NCBI RefSeq assembly: GCF_015040615.1 | Contig: NZ_CP060402.1 | Coordinates: forward strand, 682,001 to 746,000 | DNA length: 64,000 nt | Direction: 5' to 3' | From: Microbacterium sp. YJN-G | Lineage (GTDB): Bacteria > Actinomycetota > Actinomycetes > Actinomycetales > Microbacteriaceae | Part shown: positions 2,270 to 63,275 of the stretch, one piece after another | Layout: each line of letters opens with the position of its first letter | Position numbering within the stretch: the first letter of the stretch is position 1 | The notes under the pieces: generated by a model | The model's database searches: none | Seen by the model: the letters and a program-made list of their open reading frames with translations, nothing else | Told to the model about the DNA's origin: nothing | Position numbers and translations under genes: made by a program

Positions 2270-2360
2270 GGCGCTCTTGGGGAGAGTGTCGCCCCGCGAA
2301 TCGCGGGTCAACTGGGGAAACGCCGCGAGACGGCGACTGAGCACTTTTGGGGAATCGTGC
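2270..2360 (+). promoter_or_regulatory. 5' leader with three TGGGGA motifs in and between hairpins
   Basis: Between a weak -10 candidate (TATGTT, 2243-2248) and the GTG start at 2357 the leader can fold into successive hairpins. One is at 2270-2293 (GGCG/CGCC and CTC/GAG stems, loop TTGGGGA). A second is at 2293-2307 (CCCGCG/CGCGGG). A third is at 2321-2335 (CGCCG/CGGCG), with ACTGGGGAAA unpaired just before it. A weak stem GCAC/GTGC (2341-2360) holds TTTTGGGGAATC in its loop and covers the start codon. The last GGGGA is also the only Shine-Dalgarno candidate. Multiple GGA-containing loops with one at the ribosome-binding site is the layout of CsrA targets. The assignment to CsrA is an inference. 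Confidence 0.5.
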
Positions 2361-5300
2361 GCACACGCAATCTGACGTCCGTTCTGGCGATCACTGCGGT
2401 GGTCATGGGTCTGCTCGTCGTACAGGCGCCGCCACCGGCGGCGGCACTGTCGGCCGGCATCGAGTTCAGCGCCGACGATCTGCCCACCTGGCAGACCAAC
2501 GGAACGGTCTGGGCGATAGATGCCGCGAAGGGCAAGGTCGTCGCGGGCGGCACCTTCTCGCAGGTGCGCCCGCCGACGGGGCAGGCCGGGACCGTTCGCT
2601 CACAGGACGCGCTCGTGATCCTCGACGGCGAGACCGGTGCCCCCGACCAGTGCCAGTTCAGCATGTCGCTGTCGGGGGGCACCCCGACGGTGCGCGCTGT
2701 GCAGACCAGCGATGACGGCTCGGTCGTCTACATCGGCGGCAACTTCTCCAACGTCGGCGGGGTGAACGTCGCCCGCATCGCCGCGCTCGACGTCGCCACG
2801 TGCCGGGTGCTGCCGTTCCGCGCTCCGCTGCCCGGTTCGACCGTGACCGCCCTCGACGTGCACGAGAACACCCTGTACGCGGGCGGGCTGTTCACCAGCG
2901 TCGGTTCGGCTCGGCGGCTGGCGTTCGCCGCGTTCGACGCCACGTCCGGCGCGCTGCTCGACTGGGTCGCGGATGCCGTCCGCACCCGCGACGACCTGCC
3001 CAGCGCGGTCGGTCAGGCACGGGCCGTTCAGGCATCACCGGACGGCACGAAGGTCGTCGTCGGCGGCGACCTCTTCGAGATCAACGGGGTCTACTCGCAT
3101 TCGATCGCGATGGTCACCGCTGCCACCGGCCCCAACGGCGCCGGCGGCGAGGTCGTCCGCACCTACCCCTCGGGCTTCATCCCGAACACCTCGGTCACCA
3201 AGACGATCGTCGACGGCGGTGACGGGCGTTTCTACATCGGCAACGAGGGCACCGGTGGCGGCGTCTTCGACGGCAAGGCCGCGTTCTCGTGGGAGACGGG
3301 CGACCAGATCTGGCGTGACACCTGCCTGGGCGCCGTGCAGGACCTGCTCGTGCGCGGCGGCACCGTCTACTCCGCCAGCCACCACCACAACTGCGCGGGG
3401 ATCAACGCGTTCCCCGACGGCATCCGCCGGTACTTCAACGCGCAGAGCACCGAGACGATGGAGTTCTTCGGATGGCTGCCGCTCGGCAACGACGGCATCG
3501 GCGAGGGGATCGGGCCGCGGGCGCTGACGGTCGTGACCGGCCGCACCACCGGCAAGGACTACCTGTGGTCGGGCGGCGAGTTCACCCGCATCAACGGCAG
3601 CGACCAGCAGGGTCTCACCCGCTTCGGCCCCGATGACGTCGGGGCTCCGCCGGTGCCGGTGACGACGGCGCAGGCGACCAGCGATGGGACCATCCAGGTG
3701 AGCTTCCGCACCGTGGTCGACCCTGACGACGACCGCCTCACCTACAGCGTGTACCGCACGGGCACGTCCGGCCCGATCTGGCAGGGCCCCGCGAAGTCGC
3801 TGTGGTGGGTGCGTCCGCAGGTCACCTTCGTCGACTCGAACGTGACTCCGGGCACCAGCTACACGTATCGGGTCACGGCATCCGACGGCACGAACACGTC
3901 CGGGCTGTCCGCCCCCGTCAGCGCCCGCGCCATCGCACCGGCCGACGACTACGGACGCGCGGTGCGAGCGCTCCAGCCGGAGGCGAACTGGTCGGGCCCC
4001 GTCGTCGGATCCTGGGTCGTCGACACCTCGGCCAAGACGAACAGAGCGGATGCCGTGAACGGCCTGCTCATGGACGGCGCGGCGAGCGTCGCCGGCGACA
4101 GCGCAGTCCCCACGGATGACAGCGCCTTCAGCTTCGACGGCAGCAACGACTACATCCGCACGGACCAGCTGCACCCCGGTCCGACGACCTACACGGTGTC
4201 GGCCTGGGTGAAGACGACGACGACCCGAGGCGGCAAGATCATCGGCTTCGGCAACGGGCAGCCCAACACCGGCACGAACGCCTCGAGGCTGAGCGTCAGC
4301 TATGACCGCCACCTGTACATGACCAACGCCGGTCGCGTGATCTTCGGCGTGTACACCGCCGGTGCGGTGACGCTGACGACGCCGCAGAGCCTCAACGACG
4401 GCGAGTGGCACTACGTGGTCGGCACGCAGGGCCCGGCGGGCATGACCCTGTACGTCGACGGTCTGCCGGTGGCCTCGAACGGCCAGACGAACGCGCAGAA
4501 CTACTGGGGAATCTGGCGCGTCGGCGGTGACCAGCTCAACGGCTGGCCCAGCCGCCCGACGAGCAACTTCCTGTCGGGGCTCATCGACGAGGCCACGGTG
4601 TACCCGTCGGCCCTCAGCCGCAACGATGTCGCGCGCGTCTACCTGGCCTCGGGCCGTTCGCTCGACACGAACCCCGCGCCGACCGATCAATACGGTGCGG
4701 CGGTGTTCGACGACGACCCCGACCTGTACTGGCGGTTCGACGAGAGCACCGGTCAGGCGAAGGACTCGTCGCTGCTCGGTCTGCGGCCCGGCACGTACGG
4801 CCTCGGCACGCAGCCCGGCGTCACGGGCGTGATCTCGGGCAACACGGCCGTTCGCACTCCGGGCACCCTCACCGGAATCGTGAGCACGACCGAGGCGCTC
4901 GCGCCGGCACGGGTCTTCACCGCTGAGGCGTGGTTCAAGACCACGACCACCTCGGGCGGCAAGATCTTCGGCTTCGAGAACATGCCGACCGGCAACGGCA
5001 CAGGGTACGACAAGCACCTCTACATGACCGACGACGGGCGGCTGATCTGGGGATCCTGGATCGGGTCGGCCGCAGTCGTCACCTCGCCCGCCGCGTACAA
5101 CGACGGAGCGTGGCACCATGTCGCCGGTGTGATCGACGACTTCGGCCGCAAGCTGTTCGTCGACGGCGAGCAGGTGGCGCAGAGCAACGTGGTGGGAGCC
5201 GAGACCGGCAACGGCTACTGGCGGGTCGGCGGAGGCAACCTGGGCGGCTGGCCCGACCAGCCCGCCAACGGCTACTTCGACGGCGTCATCGACGAGTTCG

Positions 5301-7870
5301 CGGTGTACCCGCAGTCGATGCCGCTCGCCACGGTCGCCGCGCACCATCTGCTCGGCGTCGGCGATGCCGCAGCGCCTTCGGCACCGACCGGCCTTCAGGC
5401 CAGCGCCGGCGACGACGGCATCACGCTCACCTGGACGGCTGCCGAGAGCGGCTTCGGCGTGGACGAGTACCGCATCCACCGCAGTGCGGAGGCGGGCTTC
5501 ACACCCTCGGCCGAGACGCTGATCGGCACCAGCGAGCAGCTCTCGTTCCTTGACGAGACCGCGGCACCGGGCGACGCCTACTACCGCGTCGTCGCCGTCG
5601 GGCCCGGCGAGAACGCGGGGCCGCCCTCGGATGAGGTGCACATCGTGGTGCCCGACACCACCCCGCCGAGCGCGCCTACCGGCCTGACGGCCGTGGTCGA
5701 CCAGGACTCGGTGAGCCTCTCGTGGACGGCGTCGACCGATGACGTCGGTGTGACCGGGTACCAGGTGCACCGCGGCGACGCCGCCGGGTTCACCCCGTCG
5801 AGCACCACCCTGCTCGGCACCACCGCCGAGACGAGCTACGTCGACGCGGATCGTCCGGCGTCGGCCGGCGACTTCTACCGGGTGATCGCCGTCGACGCCG
5901 CCGGCAACGCCAGTGACCCGTCAGAGGCGGCCGAGGCCACCGAACCCGACACGACGCCACCGTCTGCCGTGACCGGAGTTTCGGCGGAGCCGGGCGAGTC
6001 CGGGGTGAACGTCAGCTGGCAGGCAGCCGGTGACGACGTGGGGGTGGCGGCGTACCGCGTCTTCCGCGGCACCACGGCCGACTTCACCGTCTCCGCCTCG
6101 AACCAGATCGCCGAGGTGGCCGGGCTGTCGCACCTGGATGCGGCGCCGGCGGGCACCTGGTTCTACCGGGTCGTGGCCGTCGACGCGGCCGGCAACGCCG
6201 GCCTCGCCTCGGATGCCGCACAGGCGTCGGTCGCCGATGTGCAGGCTCCGTCGGTGCCGTCGGGTGTGGGGGCGTCGGTGGATGGGTCGAGTGTGATGGT
6301 GTCGTGGTCGGCGTCGTCGGATGATGTCGGGGTTGTGGGTTATCAGGTGCATCGGGGTTCGTCGGCGGGGTTCGTGGTGTCGGCGGGGTCGAAGGTGGCT
6401 GATGTGACGTCGACGTCGTTCACGGATGCGGGCCGGCCGGCGGGTACCTGGTATTACCGGGTGGTCGCGGTGGATGCTGCGGGGAATGAGAGTGCGGCGT
6501 CGGCGGAGGTGTCGGGCACGGTGGCGGGTTCTTCGGAGCCGGTGACGGTGTCGGTGCCTGTGGTCGAGGATGCGATGGTGTTCGGGGTGGCTGCGGGGTC
6601 GAACTACGGTTCGGATTCGCAGTTGTCGTCTCGTGGCGGGTCTTCGCCGATCGAGTCGTTCCTGTCGTTCGATCTGCCGTCGGCGCCGTCGGGCATGGTG
6701 CTGGCCGGGGCTGAGCTGCGGCTGCGGACGTCGACGGATCCGTCGGCGTCGTCGGGGGATGCGCATGCGGTGCATCTGATGTCGGGGGCGTGGTCGGAGT
6801 CGACGGTGACGTGGAGCACGCGGCCGACGGCCGCCGGCGCGGTGCTGGGGTCGCTGCCGGCGGCGCCGGCGACGAACACGGCGTATGCGGTGTCGTTGTC
6901 GGCGGGTGCGCTGGGCGGGGTGCTGGGATCGACGCAGACGCTGCGGATCTCGAGCACCGGTGCCGACAACGTGCGCCTGTGGTCCTCCGAAGCCAGCTAC
7001 GCCCCCTACCGACCCGAACTCGTCCTCACCTTCATCGAGGGCGCCGGCCCGGAGCCCGATGTGCAGGCGCCGTCGGTGCCGTCGGGTGTGGGGGCGTCGG
7101 TGGATGGGTCGAGTGTGATGGTGTCGTGGTCGGCGTCGTCGGATGATGTCGGGGTTGTGGGTTATCAGGTGCATCGGGGTTCGTCGGCGGGGTTCGTGGT
7201 GTCGGCGGGGTCGAAGGTGGCTGATGTGACGTCGACGTCGTTCACGGATGCGGGCCGGCCGGCGGGTACCTGGTATTACCGGGTGGTCGCGGTGGATGCT
7301 GCGGGGAATGAGAGTGCGGCGTCGGCGGAGGTGTCGGGCACGGTGGCGGGTTCTTCGGAGCCGGTGACGGTGTCGGTGCCTGTGGTCGAGGATGCGATGG
7401 TGTTCGGGGTGGCTGCGGGGTCGAACTACGGTTCGGATTCGCAGTTGTCGTCTCGTGGCGGGTCTTCGCCGATCGAGTCGTTCCTGTCGTTCGATCTGCC
7501 GTCGGCGCCGTCGGGCATGGTGCTGGCCGGGGCTGAGTTGCGGGTGCGGACGTCGACGGATCCGTCGTCGTCGTCGGGGGATGCGCATGCGGTGCATCTG
7601 ATGTCGGGGGCGTGGTCGGAGTCGACGGTGACGTGGAGCACGCGGCCGACGGCCGCCGGCGCGGTGCTGGGGTCGCTGCCGGCGGCGCCGGCGACGAACA
7701 CGGCGTATGCGGTGTCGTTGTCGGCGGGTGCGCTGGGCGGGGTGCTGGGATCGACGCAGACGCTGCGGATCTCGAGCACCGGCGCCGACAACGTGCGCCT
7801 GTGGTCCTCCGAAGCCAGCTACGCCCCCTACCGACCCGAACTCGTCCTCACCTTCACGCCCGCGATGTGA
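2357..7870 (+). CDS. Giant secreted multidomain surface protein (propeller, LamG, FN3, carbohydrate-binding)
   Basis: An 1837-residue exported protein starting with GTG and a clear signal peptide (hydrophobic VLAITAVVMGLLVV, cleavage expected near AAALSA, residues 28-33). Domains in rough order: residues 35-425 hold repeats of the type VYIGGNFSNVGG...RIAALD, like delta-60 or Rax2-type beta-propellers. An FN3 domain lies near 430-525. Two LamG/concanavalin-like domains follow near 530-770 and 775-1000 (each with WHYVVG or WHHVAGV, LYVDG or LFVDG, IDEATVYP or IDEFAVYP). FN3 domains start near 1005, 1102, 1199 and 1295. A DNRLRE/CBM96-like domain lies near 1394-1558, another FN3 near 1569 and a second CBM96-like domain near 1668-1835. 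There is no LPXTG or transmembrane anchor, so it is probably released or held by binding glycans. It sits among polysaccharide genes, which fits a matrix or adhesion role. Confidence 0.85.
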   Translation: MRTRNLTSVLAITAVVMGLLVVQAPPPAAALSAGIEFSADDLPTWQTNGTVWAIDAAKGKVVAGGTFSQVRPPTGQAGTVRSQDALVILDGETGAPDQCQFSMSLSGGTPTVRAVQTSDDGSVVYIGGNFSNVGGVNVARIAALDVATCRVLPFRAPLPGSTVTALDVHENTLYAGGLFTSVGSARRLAFAAFDATSGALLDWVADAVRTRDDLPSAVGQARAVQASPDGTKVVVGGDLFEINGVYSHSIAMVTAATGPNGAGGEVVRTYPSGFIPNTSVTKTIVDGGDGRFYIGNEGTGGGVFDGKAAFSWETGDQIWRDTCLGAVQDLLVRGGTVYSASHHHNCAGINAFPDGIRRYFNAQSTETMEFFGWLPLGNDGIGEGIGPRALTVVTGRTTGKDYLWSGGEFTRINGSDQQGLTRFGPDDVGAPPVPVTTAQATSDGTIQVSFRTVVDPDDDRLTYSVYRTGTSGPIWQGPAKSLWWVRPQVTFVDSNVTPGTSYTYRVTASDGTNTSGLSAPVSARAIAPADDYGRAVRALQPEANWSGPVVGSWVVDTSAKTNRADAVNGLLMDGAASVAGDSAVPTDDSAFSFDGSNDYIRTDQLHPGPTTYTVSAWVKTTTTRGGKIIGFGNGQPNTGTNASRLSVSYDRHLYMTNAGRVIFGVYTAGAVTLTTPQSLNDGEWHYVVGTQGPAGMTLYVDGLPVASNGQTNAQNYWGIWRVGGDQLNGWPSRPTSNFLSGLIDEATVYPSALSRNDVARVYLASGRSLDTNPAPTDQYGAAVFDDDPDLYWRFDESTGQAKDSSLLGLRPGTYGLGTQPGVTGVISGNTAVRTPGTLTGIVSTTEALAPARVFTAEAWFKTTTTSGGKIFGFENMPTGNGTGYDKHLYMTDDGRLIWGSWIGSAAVVTSPAAYNDGAWHHVAGVIDDFGRKLFVDGEQVAQSNVVGAETGNGYWRVGGGNLGGWPDQPANGYFDGVIDEFAVYPQSMPLATVAAHHLLGVGDAAAPSAPTGLQASAGDDGITLTWTAAESGFGVDEYRIHRSAEAGFTPSAETLIGTSEQLSFLDETAAPGDAYYRVVAVGPGENAGPPSDEVHIVVPDTTPPSAPTGLTAVVDQDSVSLSWTASTDDVGVTGYQVHRGDAAGFTPSSTTLLGTTAETSYVDADRPASAGDFYRVIAVDAAGNASDPSEAAEATEPDTTPPSAVTGVSAEPGESGVNVSWQAAGDDVGVAAYRVFRGTTADFTVSASNQIAEVAGLSHLDAAPAGTWFYRVVAVDAAGNAGLASDAAQASVADVQAPSVPSGVGASVDGSSVMVSWSASSDDVGVVGYQVHRGSSAGFVVSAGSKVADVTSTSFTDAGRPAGTWYYRVVAVDAAGNESAASAEVSGTVAGSSEPVTVSVPVVEDAMVFGVAAGSNYGSDSQLSSRGGSSPIESFLSFDLPSAPSGMVLAGAELRLRTSTDPSASSGDAHAVHLMSGAWSESTVTWSTRPTAAGAVLGSLPAAPATNTAYAVSLSAGALGGVLGSTQTLRISSTGADNVRLWSSEASYAPYRPELVLTFIEGAGPEPDVQAPSVPSGVGASVDGSSVMVSWSASSDDVGVVGYQVHRGSSAGFVVSAGSKVADVTSTSFTDAGRPAGTWYYRVVAVDAAGNESAASAEVSGTVAGSSEPVTVSVPVVEDAMVFGVAAGSNYGSDSQLSSRGGSSPIESFLSFDLPSAPSGMVLAGAELRVRTSTDPSSSSGDAHAVHLMSGAWSESTVTWSTRPTAAGAVLGSLPAAPATNTAYAVSLSAGALGGVLGSTQTLRISSTGADNVRLWSSEASYAPYRPELVLTFTPAM
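6236..7857 (+). repeat. Tandem duplication, 822-bp period, inside the giant surface protein
   Basis: Two near-identical in-frame copies (6236-7057 and 7058-7857, the second lacking the short linker) each encode one FN3 domain plus one CBM96-like domain, 274 residues per unit. By eye only a handful of bases differ, for example near 6247/7069, 6719/7541 and 6747/7569. Within each copy the first 600 or so bases use G- and T-ending codons (gtg, tcg, ggt, gat), unlike the C-ending codons of the rest of the gene. The last 90 bases of each copy return to C-ending codons. Confidence 0.95.
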
Positions 7871-10494: not shown

Positions 10495-12039
10495 TCAGTA
10501 CGCACCCGTCGGGCGGACCATGACCTTCGCGGTGCGCCACATGATCTGCAGGTCGCTGACGACCGACCAGTTCTCGACGTACCTCAGGTCGAGCCGCACG
10601 CTCTCGTCCCACGACAGGTCGCTGCGGCCCGACACCTGCCACAGCCCGGTGATGCCCGGCTTGATATAGAGCCGGCGGAAGACGCTGCCGTCGTAGGCGC
10701 CGACCTCGCTGGTCAGCGGCGGACGCGGGCCCACCACGCTCATGTCGCCCACGAGCACGTTCCAGAACTGCGGCAGCTCGTCGAGCGAGAGCTTGCGCAT
10801 CACGCGTCCGACCCGGGTGACGCGCGGGTCGTCCTTCATCTTGAACAGCAGCCCGGCGCCCTCGTTCTGCGCGCGCAGGGCGACGAGCTGCTGTTCGGCA
10901 TCCGTGTGCATCGAGCGGAACTTGACCATCTTGAACAGCCGGCCGTCCCGCCCGACCCGTTCTTGGAAGAAGAAGACCGGGCCGGGGGAGTCGAGCTTGA
11001 TCAGGATCGCCAGGAACGGCAGCGCGATGGCGATCGGGATCAGTGCGATGGCCGCGACGACGACGTCGAGCACGCGCTTGACGGCATGCTGTCCGCCGGA
11101 GTACGCCGGAATGCGCATGCGGATCAGCGGCAGCCCGTCGAGCGGCTCGAACGACAGCCGAGGGCCCGCGACGTCGGCGAGCCTGTTGCAGAGCACGAGC
11201 TCGGCGGCGGTGCCCTCGAGCTGCCAGCTCAGGCGCTTGACGTACTCGGGATCGCCCTGCGGGCGGCTGGCGACGATGATCGTGTCGGTGCCGAGATCGC
11301 GGGCGATGTCGCTGACGGTGTCGGCGTCGCCGAGCACCGGGTAGGCGCCGTCGCCGATCACCAGCTCGGCGGGCTGTGCGGAGGCGCGGCCGTCGAGCAG
11401 GGTGACACCGACGACCCGCAGCCCGGCTGAGGCGGCGTCGTCGAGGCTGCCGATGACGTAGTCGACGTCTTCACGGTTCCCGACGACGAGTGTGCGTGAG
11501 GCGAAGCCGCCTGTCGCGCGCTGCGCGAGCAGCCATCGACGCCAGGACCACCGGCTCAGCATCAGCATTCCCAGCCCGAGGGGGAGGGCGACGACCACAA
11601 GCAACTGCATTCCATGCAGGCTCATGAGCGCGTCACCGATGGCCAGGATGCCGAATGCCAAGCCGGTGGCGTGCGCTACCCCACGATATTCCGCCACGCT
11701 GGGGCGGAACAGCGCGGAGTCGCGCGTGTGGGTGCCGCTGAGCGTCGCCATCCACACCGCGCACAGGAGCCCGGCGCGGACGGCGGTGTCGAGGGGGGCG
11801 GCCCCCAGCTGGATCTGGATGCCGACGGTGAGACCGACCACGAGGACGATCATGCCGACATCCGTGACGTGCAGGAGCATCCGATAGTGCCGTTCCCAGC
11901 GGCGTCGTTGCTCCAGTACTGTGGTCGCGCGCGGTGCCACGACAGTGTCGGGCACCGCGCGCAATGCCCGCGGTGCCGGGACGGCGCGGAGCCCCGCGTC
12001 GCCTCGGCTGAGCTTCAGGACTTCCCCAACGGAAGTCAT
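10495..12039 (-). CDS. Polyprenyl-phosphate sugar-1-phosphate transferase (exopolysaccharide priming enzyme)
   Basis: A 514-residue membrane protein of the WbaP/WcaJ type. Four or five N-terminal helices are followed by a nucleotide-binding-like CoA_binding_3 region (TLVVGNREDVDYVIGSL). The C-terminal bacterial sugar transferase domain carries KRVLDVVVAAIALIPIAI, SPGPVFFFQERVGRDG, FKMVKFRSM, RKLSLDELPQFWNVL, GDMSVVGPRPPL and KPGITGLWQVSGRS. It starts polymer assembly by loading a sugar phosphate onto undecaprenyl phosphate. The start at 12039 was chosen because GGAG precedes it and the longer open frame upstream translates the structured leader. A second priming enzyme is encoded at 22978, so there are probably two polymers or alternative primers. 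Confidence 0.92.
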   Translation of the reverse strand: MTSVGEVLKLSRGDAGLRAVPAPRALRAVPDTVVAPRATTVLEQRRRWERHYRMLLHVTDVGMIVLVVGLTVGIQIQLGAAPLDTAVRAGLLCAVWMATLSGTHTRDSALFRPSVAEYRGVAHATGLAFGILAIGDALMSLHGMQLLVVVALPLGLGMLMLSRWSWRRWLLAQRATGGFASRTLVVGNREDVDYVIGSLDDAASAGLRVVGVTLLDGRASAQPAELVIGDGAYPVLGDADTVSDIARDLGTDTIIVASRPQGDPEYVKRLSWQLEGTAAELVLCNRLADVAGPRLSFEPLDGLPLIRMRIPAYSGGQHAVKRVLDVVVAAIALIPIAIALPFLAILIKLDSPGPVFFFQERVGRDGRLFKMVKFRSMHTDAEQQLVALRAQNEGAGLLFKMKDDPRVTRVGRVMRKLSLDELPQFWNVLVGDMSVVGPRPPLTSEVGAYDGSVFRRLYIKPGITGLWQVSGRSDLSWDESVRLDLRYVENWSVVSDLQIMWRTAKVMVRPTGAY

Positions 12040-12211
12040 GCTGAAGCTCCGCGGACCGTTGATGTACGCAAACCCCAGTGCGACATTCTTTCCCCAGTTT
12101 CCCCAGAACCTGACGTCTCGCGACGGCAGGCGTCTTGCATGCACCGACGCGGCGGTGCTGTCGATCGTGATCGGATCAAAGAGCGGATGCGGCTCCCCAG
12201 CCGCGTCCGCT
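12023..12211 (-). promoter_or_regulatory. 5' leader with repeated TGGGGA motifs, upstream of priming transferase
   Basis: Read on the minus strand, the 230 bases between the cytidylyltransferase stop and this gene hold a strong hairpin at 12211-12182. It has an outer AGCGGA/TCCGCT stem, one mismatch, an inner GCGGC/GCCGC stem and a hexaloop TGGGGA. Further down are TTCTGGGGAA (12107-12098), ACTGGGGAAA (12098-12089), a CGCA/TGCG hairpin with loop CTGGGGTT (near 12083-12068), and another TGGGGA inside codons 4-6 of the gene (12028-12023). The same TGGGGA-in-loop pattern occurs before the genes at 2357 and 12714. No obvious rho-independent terminator or known riboswitch core is visible. CsrA binding is an inference. 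Confidence 0.5.
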
Positions 12212-12270
12212 ATCGACGGAACAGATATTCGCTCAGGCGCAGGGCGGTGAGCGCGAGACGCTGCAGTGGC

Positions 12271-12714
12271 TCATCGTGACGCCGCCATCTCGGTGCGGGT
12301 GAGGGCATCGAGTGCGCGTCGCAGCACCGTGCTCGAGGTGTGGACGGTGTACGGGAAGTACACGACATCCACGCCGACCGTCGCGAGCTCGCGTTCGAGC
12401 CGCAGCCCCTTCTCGGTGCCGCGCCAGTCATCGCCCTTGAAGAAGCACGTGAAGTGCAGGTTGTGCCACGCATCCAGCTTCGACCCGGTGGTCTCGATGT
12501 AGATGTCGTCGACGTAGATGATGCTGCGCACGATCTCGGCGCGTTCGGCGGTCGGTATGACGGGCTCGACGCCTTTGACCGTGCGCAGCATCTCGTCACT
12601 GGCGACCCCCGCGATCAGATAATCGCAGTGCTCTCGGGCGTGCCGCAGAATGTTGAGGTGTCCGACATGGAACAAGTCGAACGCCCCAGTGGTATACCCG
12701 ATGCGAGTCCCCAT
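12271..12714 (-). CDS. TagD-like glycerol-3-phosphate / small-molecule cytidylyltransferase
   Basis: A 147-residue single-domain nucleotidyltransferase. It has the GAFDLFHVGHLNIL signature (HVGH at residues 16-19) that binds the CTP phosphates and the late TSST motif near residue 124. The spacing matches glycerol-3-phosphate cytidylyltransferases of teichoic acid synthesis. The residue set KGDDWRGTEKG fits CTP or ribitol/glycerol-phosphate type enzymes. It would make a CDP-alcohol in the cytoplasm. The CDP-alcohol phosphotransferase at 1418-2170 is a possible user. The gene has its own promoter and a structured leader with TGGGGA loops. The polyol is not determinable, and an ADP-heptose-like nucleotidyltransferase role is less likely at this length. 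Confidence 0.85.
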   Translation of the reverse strand: MGTRIGYTTGAFDLFHVGHLNILRHAREHCDYLIAGVASDEMLRTVKGVEPVIPTAERAEIVRSIIYVDDIYIETTGSKLDAWHNLHFTCFFKGDDWRGTEKGLRLERELATVGVDVVYFPYTVHTSSTVLRRALDALTRTEMAASR

Positions 12715-12777
12715 GATCTCCCCAGATCATTCCCCAGTGATGGCGGATCCCCATCCGCCACGGCTCCCACAGCCGTG
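12715..12777 (-). promoter_or_regulatory. 5' leader of four consecutive hairpins with TGGGA/TGGGGA loops
   Basis: On the minus strand, from the predicted transcription start to the ATG at 12714, four hairpins follow one another. They are 12777-12759 (CACGGC/GCCGTG, loop TGTGGGA), 12759-12742 (GGCGGA/TCCGCC, loop TGGGGA), 12741-12726 (ATCA/TGAT, loop CTGGGGAA) and 12728-12715 (GATC/GATC, loop TGGGGA). The last two share three bases, so they exclude each other. The final TGGGGA is also the Shine-Dalgarno element. A protein that binds GGA in loops, such as CsrA, could cover it. This is the clearest of the three related leaders. Confidence 0.6.
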
Positions 12778-12782
12778 CTGTC

Positions 12783-12812
12783 ACTCTACTCACGTTTACG
12801 CGAGTAACGCAA
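12783..12812 (-). promoter_or_regulatory. Sigma-70-type promoter of the cytidylyltransferase gene
   Basis: On the minus strand a -35 element TTGCGT (12812-12807) and a -10 element TAGAGT (12788-12783) are separated by 18 bases. The expected transcription start, about 7 bases on, falls at 12776-12777, exactly where the first leader hairpin begins. The agreement supports both calls. Confidence 0.55.
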
Positions 12813-12923
12813 TCACATTTCGGCGTGGCGCAACCGAGTTCCATGCATTCAAGGTCTGGACGTTCTGCATTGTGCGAGAGGTGAAAGAAGGCGACCGGTC
12901 AGGTCGACCGAAGCCCACCCGCA

Positions 12924-30373: not shown

Positions 30374-30589
30374 CAGTGGCTTGAAACTGGGGAGGACTGG
30401 GGTCGCCGGGGAGGGGATGAACTCGGCGGAATCCGGGACGCGAGGGGCGGCCCGGGCAGACTCTGGGGCGACAGCCGCCAAGGGGACGGCTGACTGAATA
30501 GGGGATGGGGAGAGAGGCGTCTCGCCCCGCTCGCAGGCCACGGGGAGGGCAGGTGAGCGGGACGGGGCGCCTCGGCCCGTTCCGGGCCG

Positions 30590-30722
30590 GTGCGGTTCGG
30601 GCCGGATGCCGTCGGTCGGCCGTCGGGCGGATGTTGTTCCGGGCGGATGCTGTTCTGGGCCGATGCCGTTCCGGGCGGATGCCGTTCCCGGGCGGACGCG
30701 CTCAGGCGGACGCGATCAGGCG
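30590..30722. repeat. Degenerate 16-bp tandem repeat in the gap before the response regulator gene
   Basis: The 342-base gap 30374-30715 contains no supported gene. Its right half is an imperfect tandem repeat with a 16-base period, GGGCGGATGCCGTTCC and variants, four clear units from 30625, then shortened 14-17 base units that run into the 3' end of the response regulator gene. The left half is a G-rich stretch with scattered GGGGA but no hairpin I could support. Confidence 0.65.
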
Positions 30723-35554: not shown

Positions 35555-35803
35555 GAGGTGGCGCAACACGCGGCATCCGGTGGGCGTGAGGCCACCATCT
35601 GTGACACCTGAACCGGGGGAGGGGTCGCCAGTCTTCCGCTCTTCCTCGTCAAGGTGGCGCAACACGCGGCATCCGGTGTGCGTGACGCCACCATCTGCGA
35701 CACCTGAGCGGGGGGGGAGGGGTCGCTCGTCTTCCGCTCTTCCTCCTCGAGGTGGCGCAACACGCGGCATCCGGTGGGCGTGACGCCACCACCTGCGACA
35801 CCT
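35555..35803. repeat. Three palindromic repeats (family A) between coaA and glmS
   Basis: The 361-base gap 35512-35872 holds three copies of a 55-56 bp element (35555-35609, 35651-35706, 35749-35803). Each runs GAGGTGGCGCAACACGCGGC to a closing GCGACACCT or GTGACACCT, with the arms GGTGKCGCA and TGYGACACC in inverted order. Here the asymmetric centre is in the opposite orientation to the copies at 37795-37946 and 62855-63253. They are separated by 40-45 bases of G-rich filler including a run of eight G. Apart from the glmS ribosome-binding region nothing else is recognisable in the gap. Confidence 0.85.
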
Positions 35804-35872
35804 GAACCGGGGGAGCCAGGCCCTGGAGTTCGTTCGGCTCCCTTGCAAATTGCGCCGCTTATCCTTGAATCC

Positions 35873-43122: not shown

Positions 43123-43173
43123 CCCGTCGCGGCTGCGGCGGCTCCCGTTCGCTCGCGCCCCCTGCACTCGCTC

Positions 43174-43574
43174 GCGGGTCCCGAATGGCTGCATCCGTTG
43201 GCGCGAGGTCACCATGTGGGACCCGCGAACTGGGGGTGGGGGTCTGTGACGCGCGGGGGGCGGTGCTGCGCGCTGGCCCTGTTCGCTCGCGGGTCCCGAA
43301 TGGCTGCATTCGTTGGCGTGAGGCCACCATGTGGGACCCGCGAATCTGGGGGTGGGGTCTGCGTCGAGAGGGGGGCGGTGCTGCGCGCTGGCCCCCTGCA
43401 CTCGCGGGTCCCGAATGGCGGCATCCGTTGGCGCGAGGTCACCATGTGGGACCCGCGAACCTGGGGGTGGGGTCGGCGACGAGAGGGCGGGGCGGTGCTG
43501 CGCGCCGGGCCTGCTCGCTCGCGGGTCCCGAATGGCTGCATCTGAGGGCCCGAGGCCGCCATTCGGGACCCGCG
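43174..43574. repeat. Four palindromic repeats (family B) between tsaE and csrA
   Basis: The 467-base gap between the converging tsaE and csrA genes is filled by four copies of a 54-56 bp element at 43174-43227, 43288-43342, 43404-43457 and 43519-43574. Each begins GCGGGTCCCGAATGG and ends with CCATGTGGGACCCGC or CCATTCGGGACCCGC, with TGCATCCGTTGGCGCGAGG between. In the last copy the arms are complementary over 16 bases, which could stop transcription from both sides. A fifth copy lies at 53265-53320. The filler between copies is G-rich and itself semi-repeated (GCGGTGCTGCGCGCTGG). Confidence 0.9.
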
Positions 43575-43589
43575 AACCCGGCGTGCGGG

Positions 43590-43841
43590 TCAGGGCTGGG
43601 CGTCGCGGCGGCGGGCGAGCGCGGCGACGATGGCATCCGCGGCGTCCGCTCCGGCGCCGGTGTCGGCGGCGGCGGTGTTCTCGGCCACGACGGCGTTCAC
43701 GATCTCGGAGCGCTGGATGCGGGTCTCACGGGGGGCGTTCACCCCGATGCGGATGCTGTCGCCCTTGATGTCGAGCAGCGTGACCTCGATCTCGCCGCCG
43801 ATCAGAACGCTCTCACCGATCTTCCTCGTCAACACCAGCAT
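43590..43841 (-). CDS. csrA: Carbon storage regulator, RNA-binding protein
   Basis: An 83-residue CsrA. The core is canonical: MLVLTRKIGESVLIGGEIEV, LLDIKGDSIRIGVNAPRE, IQRSEIV, with R6 and the Arg of IQRSEI at the RNA-contact positions. It binds GGA motifs in mRNA leaders and usually blocks ribosomes. Here it is the last gene of the flagellar cluster, 9 bases after flhA. The usual protein antagonist gene fliW is not recognisable in this window. Three surface-polysaccharide leaders in the window carry multiple GGGGA loops and are candidate targets. The C-terminal 25 residues are an Ala/Asp-rich tail longer than in E. coli. Confidence 0.94.
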   Translation of the reverse strand: MLVLTRKIGESVLIGGEIEVTLLDIKGDSIRIGVNAPRETRIQRSEIVNAVVAENTAAADTGAGADAADAIVAALARRRDAQP

Positions 43842-62854: not shown

Positions 62855-63253
62855 GAGGTGTCGCAATTGGTGGGGTCGGCGGGGTGGGATGCCGCGTGTT
62901 GCGACACCTCGAAGGAAGGAGGAAGGAGGAAGCGAGGGGCGGGATGCCGTCGGCCGAGGTCGTCGATCTTCTCTCGTCGCATCGCGGCCGCGGTCATCCC
63001 TCCGCGTGAGGTGTCGCGAATGGTGGGGTCGGCGGGGTTGGATGCGGCGTGTTGTGACGCCTCGAAGGAGGGGAGGGGCCGGATGCCGTCATCCCTCGGC
63101 TTGAGGTGTCGCAAGTGGTGGGGTCGGCGGGGTTGGATGCGGCGTGTTGTGACACCTCGAAGGAGGGGAGGGGCCGGATGCCGTCATCCCTCGGCGTGAG
63201 GTGTCGCAAGTGGTGGGGTTGGCGGGGTGGGATGCCGCGTGTTGCGACACCTC
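62855..63253. repeat. Four palindromic repeats (family A) between fliT-like gene and flgB
   Basis: The 593-base gap 62683-63275 contains four family A copies in the same orientation, 62855-62910, 63007-63063, 63102-63159 and 63197-63253. The consensus begins GAGGTGTCGCAANTGGTGGG and ends GCGTGTTGYGACACCTCGAA, with TCGGCGGGGTNGGATGC between. The last three are spaced about 95 bases apart, joined by nearly identical linkers (GGGAGGGGCCGGATGCCGTC), so this array grew by tandem duplication. The right part of the gap holds the flgB promoter. Confidence 0.9.
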
Positions 63254-63275
63254 GAAGGGAATGGGCGGGATGCCG

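Follow-up and report, generated by a model that had tools for sequence, protein, structure and literature searches.

Control of a translational regulator by decoy RNAs is described mainly for proteobacteria and for CsrA. In the Csr/Rsm systems (CsrA/RsmA, with the RNAs CsrB/CsrC and RsmX/Y/Z), leaders carry several hairpin loops with GGA, one of them at the ribosome site, stand-alone RNAs carry multiple copies of the loop, and surface polysaccharide is among the targets. The loops of known CsrA sites follow the consensus ANGGAN. In Gram-positives, FliW-CsrA controls flagellin, and decoy RNAs are not known to take part. Leaders with hexaloop hairpins in tandem also occur as the dual-hairpin targets of ANTAR proteins, whose hexaloops need A1 and G4. 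Finally, according to the accessible parts of two papers, the C-loops of the mycobacterial 6C/B11 RNA (RF01066) repress through G-tracts near the ribosome site, also in lipooligosaccharide genes (PMC10470900, PMC12395582).

Here, a window of 64,000 nt from Microbacterium sp. YJN-G was analysed, in which the word UGGGGA is repeated in the leader of a cytidylyltransferase-like gene (Table 1). The system found here shares with Csr/Rsm the several GGA hairpin loops per leader with one at the ribosome site, the predicted stand-alone RNAs with multiple loop copies (here s1 and s2, for which flanking genes and loops were read) and the surface polysaccharide genes among the targets. It differs in the word itself, in the absence of csrA from a part of the leader-bearing genomes and in its actinobacterial host. 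The anatomy is thus that of a Csr/Rsm circuit, whereas the protein and the loop consensus place it outside Csr. In the case of 6C/B11, the resemblance lies in the action on G-tracts near the ribosome site and in the cell-envelope genes concerned, as far as the accessible parts of the sources go, and a C-loop RNA co-occurs here. The UGGGGA arrays, in contrast, are the G-rich side, with fixed U and A, and the co-occurring C-loop RNA scores below the 6C cut-off, and its locus is not that of the 6C copies read. The likeness to FliW-CsrA is a csrA gene that adjoins an flhA-like gene in the window (by eye); the targets here are polysaccharide genes. ANTAR targets share the tandem hexaloop hairpins, whereas the loop of the last hairpin begins with U in 54/54 leaders. 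Altogether, UGGGGA hairpins before surface-sugar genes and decoy-like RNAs point to an undescribed RNA-level control circuit of the cell surface. Searches among open-licence papers brought up no account of leaders or decoys of this kind for Microbacterium and no description of decoy RNAs in actinobacteria; in the accessible part of one of them csrA is only annotated (PMC10384088).

Table 1. Features of the UGGGGA arrays and their genes (positions in the window, or on C1 of the same genome where so marked).
Feature	Position	Strand	Remark
Main leader	12777..12715	-	5' of ATG 12714 of the cytidylyltransferase-like gene
TAGAGT, predicted -10 element of the promoter of this leader	12783..12788	-	by eye
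Hairpin 1 (H1), loop UGUGGGA, ACGGCU-GUGGG-AGCCGU	12759..12777	-	predicted fold
Hairpin 2 (H2), loop UGGGGA, GGCGGAU-GGGG-AUCCGCC	12740..12761	-	predicted fold
Linker copy of UGGGGA (third hairpin of the original prediction)	12731..12736	-	linker in the predicted fold
Last hairpin, loop UGGGGA, AUGAUCU-GGGG-AGAUCAU	12713..12730	-	ribosome-binding position
Fifth UGGGGA, overlapping the start codon (AUGGGGAC)	12708..12713	-	sequence
Cytidylyltransferase-like gene, PF01467, first target	12271..12714	-	Pfam scan
Second leader, hairpin GCGGC-TGGGGA-GCCGC at 12204..12189; TGGGGA also at 12105, 12096 and 12028	12028..12204	-	
Priming sugar transferase, PF02397	10495..12039	-	start MTSV at 12039
Third leader, TGGGGA at 2278, 2313 and 2348	2270..2356	+	
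Large surface-type protein, 1837 residues, laminin-G, fn3, CBM96; third target	2357..7870	+	
csrA	43590..43841	-	disfavoured as reader of the motif
s1	C1:670142-670276		
s2	near C1:2783823		

The original prediction had described four successive hairpins in the main leader. H1, H2 and the last hairpin are real and conserved. The third, ATCA-CTGGGGAA-TGAT, can be drawn but does not appear in the predicted fold, and its stem reaches at least 4 pairs in only 2 of the 15 aligned species; elsewhere this copy is a linker. The proposed mutual exclusion of the two hairpins nearest the ATG holds in so far as they would compete if the third formed. The claim of a regulatory array over the ribosome-binding region is supported. 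The last UGGGGA loop lies about 4 nt 5' of the ATG, and the 3' arm of its hairpin takes in the A and U of the start codon. The main leader folds with an MFE of -30.5 (z -2.54), 4 of 200 shuffles being equally good, and the G-runs of H1, H2 and the last hairpin have a predicted probability of being paired of 0.00-0.01.

The promoter of this leader was judged by eye. Its -10 element has an actinobacterial look, with a predicted start about 6-7 nt 5' of H1; TAGACT or a similar element occupies this position in many relatives, and a sigma-70 scan of the leader promoter gave no match. A dyad-like GTTAC..GTAAC is visible 5' of the -10 element in the window (12791-12810) and in two relatives (G059 and G099; loci L082 and L133), while several others (within L080-L093) have a different dyad-like type, GGGTTCC..GGAAACCC, in this place (by eye).

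An alignment of the leader from 15 species shows fixed loops on varying stems. Both sides have changed in 4 of 15 pairs, two of them in H1 and two in H2, a number reached by 0/500 shuffles; the last helix is nearly invariant and is thus uninformative on covariation. The prediction therefore survives the check on covarying stems and conserved loops within Microbacterium. Among 54 distinct leaders, the last hairpin loop is TGGGGA in all, H1 reads CTGTGGGAG in 50 and the fifth copy reads ATGGGGAC in 45, with one more in another register. The H2 loop is TGGGGA in 50/51 matched sites and the linker copy keeps its U and A in 51/51, with 3/54 leaders unmatched in each case.

Regarding distribution, 80 loci of the cytidylyltransferase gene were kept, and 42 of them have at least three UGGGGA within 100 nt upstream (our own count). 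These 42 are titled Microbacterium, except for two titled at family or order level only, while the Agrococcus, Leifsonia, Naasia and Leucobacter loci among the 80 have no such array. Order-wide, the strict triple pattern was found in 31/248 genomes, including 3 of 10 Microbacterium, and was absent in 8 family members from two other genera; the matches listed outside the genus mostly have the look of tandem repeats. One triple-pattern set common to three genomes of one genus (L189-L191) is not tandem-repeat-like. In other Microbacterium lineages (L247, L264, L269 and L278) the same gene is preceded, by eye, by hairpins with runs of G5-G6 and by a CTGGGGGG ribosome site, as if the word had shifted there. 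A Planococcus-titled contig (L258) also carries a Microbacterium-like cytidylyltransferase gene and is possibly a mislabelled or contaminated assembly. The suggestion that the leader could be an undescribed element agrees with the Rfam searches: Rfam 15, run on the whole window, gave no match at gathering score, and no match at E<=1 overlapped the elements in one locus each of the leader (L080), s1 (L060) and s2 (L369) or in window positions 12000-12900.

The clustering of the word was compared with chance. A stretch of 80 nt before the cytidylyltransferase gene holds five copies of UGGGGA or UGUGGGA, against a maximum of 3 in 300 simulated windows (fourth-order Markov), and chance G-runs were therefore rejected as the source of this cluster. 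The window has only three hairpins that combine a TGGGGA hexaloop with a stem of 5 pairs or more, two in the main leader and one at 12204..12189. Genome-wide counts of the pair pattern show no enrichment relative to the reversed control (25 vs 82), so the significance rests on clustering, structure and conservation. Twelve of these 25 matches fall within C1:670-695 kb, around polysaccharide genes. Across the genus, the triple pattern is present in 171/295 Microbacterium genomes and its reversed control in about 66/295 (the control being counted by eye).

These 25 kb around polysaccharide genes hold s1 and six further UGGGGA clusters. One marks the beginning of a hexapeptide-transferase gene (670752), a second is the array at 672558, a third lies at a gene at 681143-681188, and the other three are the leaders of the window, which belong to the cytidylyltransferase, the priming transferase and the surface-type protein. 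In several of the clusters of this genome, the word is fused to the start codon (AUGGGGA). In the case of the priming transferase, for which the Pfam scan began at 12042, the start given in Table 1 was preferred over a longer ORF because a relative (L043) has MTSV too; the copy at 12028 lies inside the gene start. The repetition of the element in three leaders of the window was borne out for the word, with copies in all three, and not for the fold: compared with shuffles, the whole second leader (4 copies, z +0.96) and the whole third leader (3 copies, z +0.39) fold no better.

Other species have UGGGGA arrays in front of priming sugar transferases (L042, L043, L047, L050 and L407), a nucleotidyltransferase with the look of RmlA (L030), glycosyltransferases (L036 and L049), a VWA protein (L034) and an AMP-binding enzyme (L403). 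The last copy lies 77-99 nt 5' of the first possible start of the transferase in L042, L050 and L407, so the word is not always on the ribosome site of the transferase. At these three loci, the array ends with an AUGGGGA that is out of frame with the following sugar transferase, and a short upstream ORF may be involved. Additionally, predicted folds pair the G-runs (0.4-0.8) in L042, in L050, in the leader at 12204..12028 and in 2/3 s2 copies; loop exposure is thus seen in the predicted folds of the main leader and s1 only.

Besides the leaders, the word is found in stand-alone arrays. s1 is a conserved intergenic array of three UGGGGA hairpins with no gene on the same strand after it. In L064 a divergent gene precedes it and a convergent gene follows, and s2 lies likewise between divergent and convergent genes in L022 and L150, so that neither is a leader at those loci. 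Both fold well (z -3.13 for s1 and -2.85 for s2), and both sides have changed in 9 of 19 pairs of s1. Swapping the arms of s1 between species gave weak support for hairpin 1 (4.38 vs 3.78 pairs) and hairpin 2 (4.00 vs 3.52), and better support for hairpin 3 (4.50 vs 2.98). With covariance models, the leader was found in 57 and s1 in 61 of 295 Microbacterium genomes; 53 have both and 12 only one of them (p 8e-45). The thresholds of 1e-5 and 1e-9 were chosen after inspecting the match lists; at 0.01 the numbers are 59 for the leader and 73 for s1, a part of these 73 being s2. In our analysis, these multi-loop RNAs, which the original prediction did not include, make the case for a Csr/Rsm-like architecture much stronger.

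Further intergenic arrays adjoin response-regulator genes (genes read in L076 and L078; L077 and L079 judged by their sequence ends). In the window, a G-rich stretch with several TGGGG(A) at 30374-30716 (+), with a glycosyltransferase-like ORF on one side and a convergent response-regulator-like ORF on the other, is possibly the local counterpart of the arrays in L078 and L079. An array with the hairpin GCGATGT-CTGGGGA-CATCGC between two minus-strand ORFs (L368, G000:C1:852100-852500) is a possible third stand-alone RNA.

We propose that UGGGGA or UGUGGGA, in loops or linkers, would be the binding word of a putative trans-acting, sequence-specific RNA-binding protein other than CsrA. On surface-polysaccharide mRNAs, this protein would cover the ribosome site together with the start codon and most likely block translation. 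s1 and s2, which we infer to be transcribed, would titrate it as decoys with their at least three copies of the word each, as CsrB and CsrC do for CsrA. UGGGGA and the hairpin loop UGUGGGA recur together in other leaders of a genome without csrA (G013). For this explanation in its entirety, we put the chances at just under even.

The reader named in the original prediction was CsrA, and csrA is indeed encoded where it had been placed (43841..43590, minus strand). If CsrA read the loops, s1 and s2 would be CsrB-like decoys, which would suit the overall Csr-like architecture. The gene is present in 76/295 Microbacterium genomes (family model) and is enriched with the leader (42/57 leader genomes vs 34/238 others, p 6e-18), and in three genomes an extra UGGGGA array lies about 3 kb from it (G029 and G209, loci read; G063, by position). 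However, csrA is missing from 15/57 leader genomes, 14 of these 15 being at least 96% complete, and from 20/61 s1 genomes (present in 41/61). The leader is kept where csrA is missing, with the last loop intact in 15/15 and the H2 loop in 13/15 (by eye), so that CsrA seems dispensable for keeping the element. When csrA was mapped on the tree of the target gene (34 rows, of which 14 lack csrA), its absence took 9 changes, at least 4 of them forced by well-supported branches; the tree is that of a single gene, has some long branches and shows no clear clustering of absence (68/500 shuffles as low). Moreover, 33 csrA genomes carry neither leader nor s1, and the loops are UGGGGA or UGUGGGA instead of ANGGAN. 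CsrA is thus probably not the reader of UGGGGA, and a circuit of CsrA with CsrB-like decoys is highly unlikely. A more serious rival is a C-loop small RNA of the 6C/B11 kind, whose UCCCC would pair with GGGGA at the ribosome site and for which s1 and s2 would be sponges. Such an RNA of 61 nt and two hairpins, with a 5' loop CUCC and a terminator-like hairpin with the loop UCCCCCC, lies within C1:3374884-3374959. Strong matches to it (E <1e-15, a threshold placed where the match list has a gap) were found in 94/295 genomes and in 64 of the 65 with leader or s1, the missing one being 79% complete; this co-occurrence is closer than that of csrA. Among 39 named genomes, they were found in 8/8 with a window-type leader and in 0/31 others, and outside the 65 the triple pattern occurs in 25/30 genomes with the C-loop RNA vs 83/200 without. 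UGGGGA also ranks 14th of 4096 hexamers for pairing with UCCCCCC. Nevertheless, the word hardly departs from U1, four Gs and A6, although a change to GGGGGA would improve the pairing by 3.3 kcal/mol and one to AGGGGA or CGGGGA would leave it about as good, and the variant UGUGGGA pairs worse (-8.0 vs -11.3). One genome (G542, locus L254) has four UGGGGA in its leader and no match to the C-loop RNA (E<=0.05) or to 6C (E<=10), and G013 has several UGGGGA leaders and 6C, but no match to the C-loop RNA. A second class of this RNA, which has CCCCCC as well, was read in six of the sampled Microbacterium genomes, none of them with the triple pattern, and the co-occurrence with the leader may reflect shared ancestry. 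Despite the 64/65, the fixed U, UGUGGGA, G542 and G013 led us away from the C-loop RNA, which we regard as an unlikely reader.

Two further readings dispense with one part of the circuit each. If s1 and s2 were independent regulators or unexpressed repeats, the leaders would be a separate G-rich feature of ribosome sites, and high-GC genomes are indeed rich in G-runs, as the reversed control of 82 illustrates. The 53 genomes common to leader and s1, the stem covariation of s1 and the shared loop word argue against this, and we consider it somewhat less probable than a C-loop reader. The trans partner could also be absent altogether, with hairpins that shape or sequester the ribosome site in cis as a thermometer or translation-rate device. 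This would fit the last loop at the ribosome site and the stem that enters the start codon, but the G-runs in three hairpins of the main leader are exposed (P paired about 0.0), and the fixed loops on varying stems, the upstream copies and the same loops in stand-alone RNAs are left unexplained. Of all the readings considered, purely cis-acting hairpins appear the least probable.

With a UGGGGA-binding protein other than CsrA as the preferred reading, the leaders, at least two decoy RNAs and surface polysaccharide targets would amount to the Csr/Rsm principle having been invented a second time without CsrA, for which we see a real prospect, though one clearly short of even. If true, this actinobacterial counterpart would mean that the same circuit arose twice. 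Furthermore, the leader, s1 and s2 would be ready-made baits for finding an RNA-binding protein in a group that is not known to have Hfq, and whose surface polysaccharides bear on biofilms.

Some additional features of these loci were observed. The C-loop RNA reaches 29.3 bits against 6C (RF01066), below the family cut-off of 47 bits. Canonical 6C was considered as the RNA of the UGGGGA clade and set aside: in each of the three loci read (L104, L109 and L281) its neighbour is a gene that looks acs-like by eye, and the clade carries its different C-loop RNA at another place. Directly 5' of the C-loop RNA, a strongly conserved palindrome, TTTGTCCCCC(N3)TGGGGGACAAA or near to it, is present in this genome (L372, G000:C1:3374700-3375100) and in relatives (L340-L359), and looks like an operator for a transcription factor. 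Finally, the window holds tandem arrays of 95-115-nt units in 2.7 to 3.6 copies at 35556-35815, 62993-63258 and 43168-43577, the last of these being flanked by csrA and by a gene that looks tsaE-like by eye.
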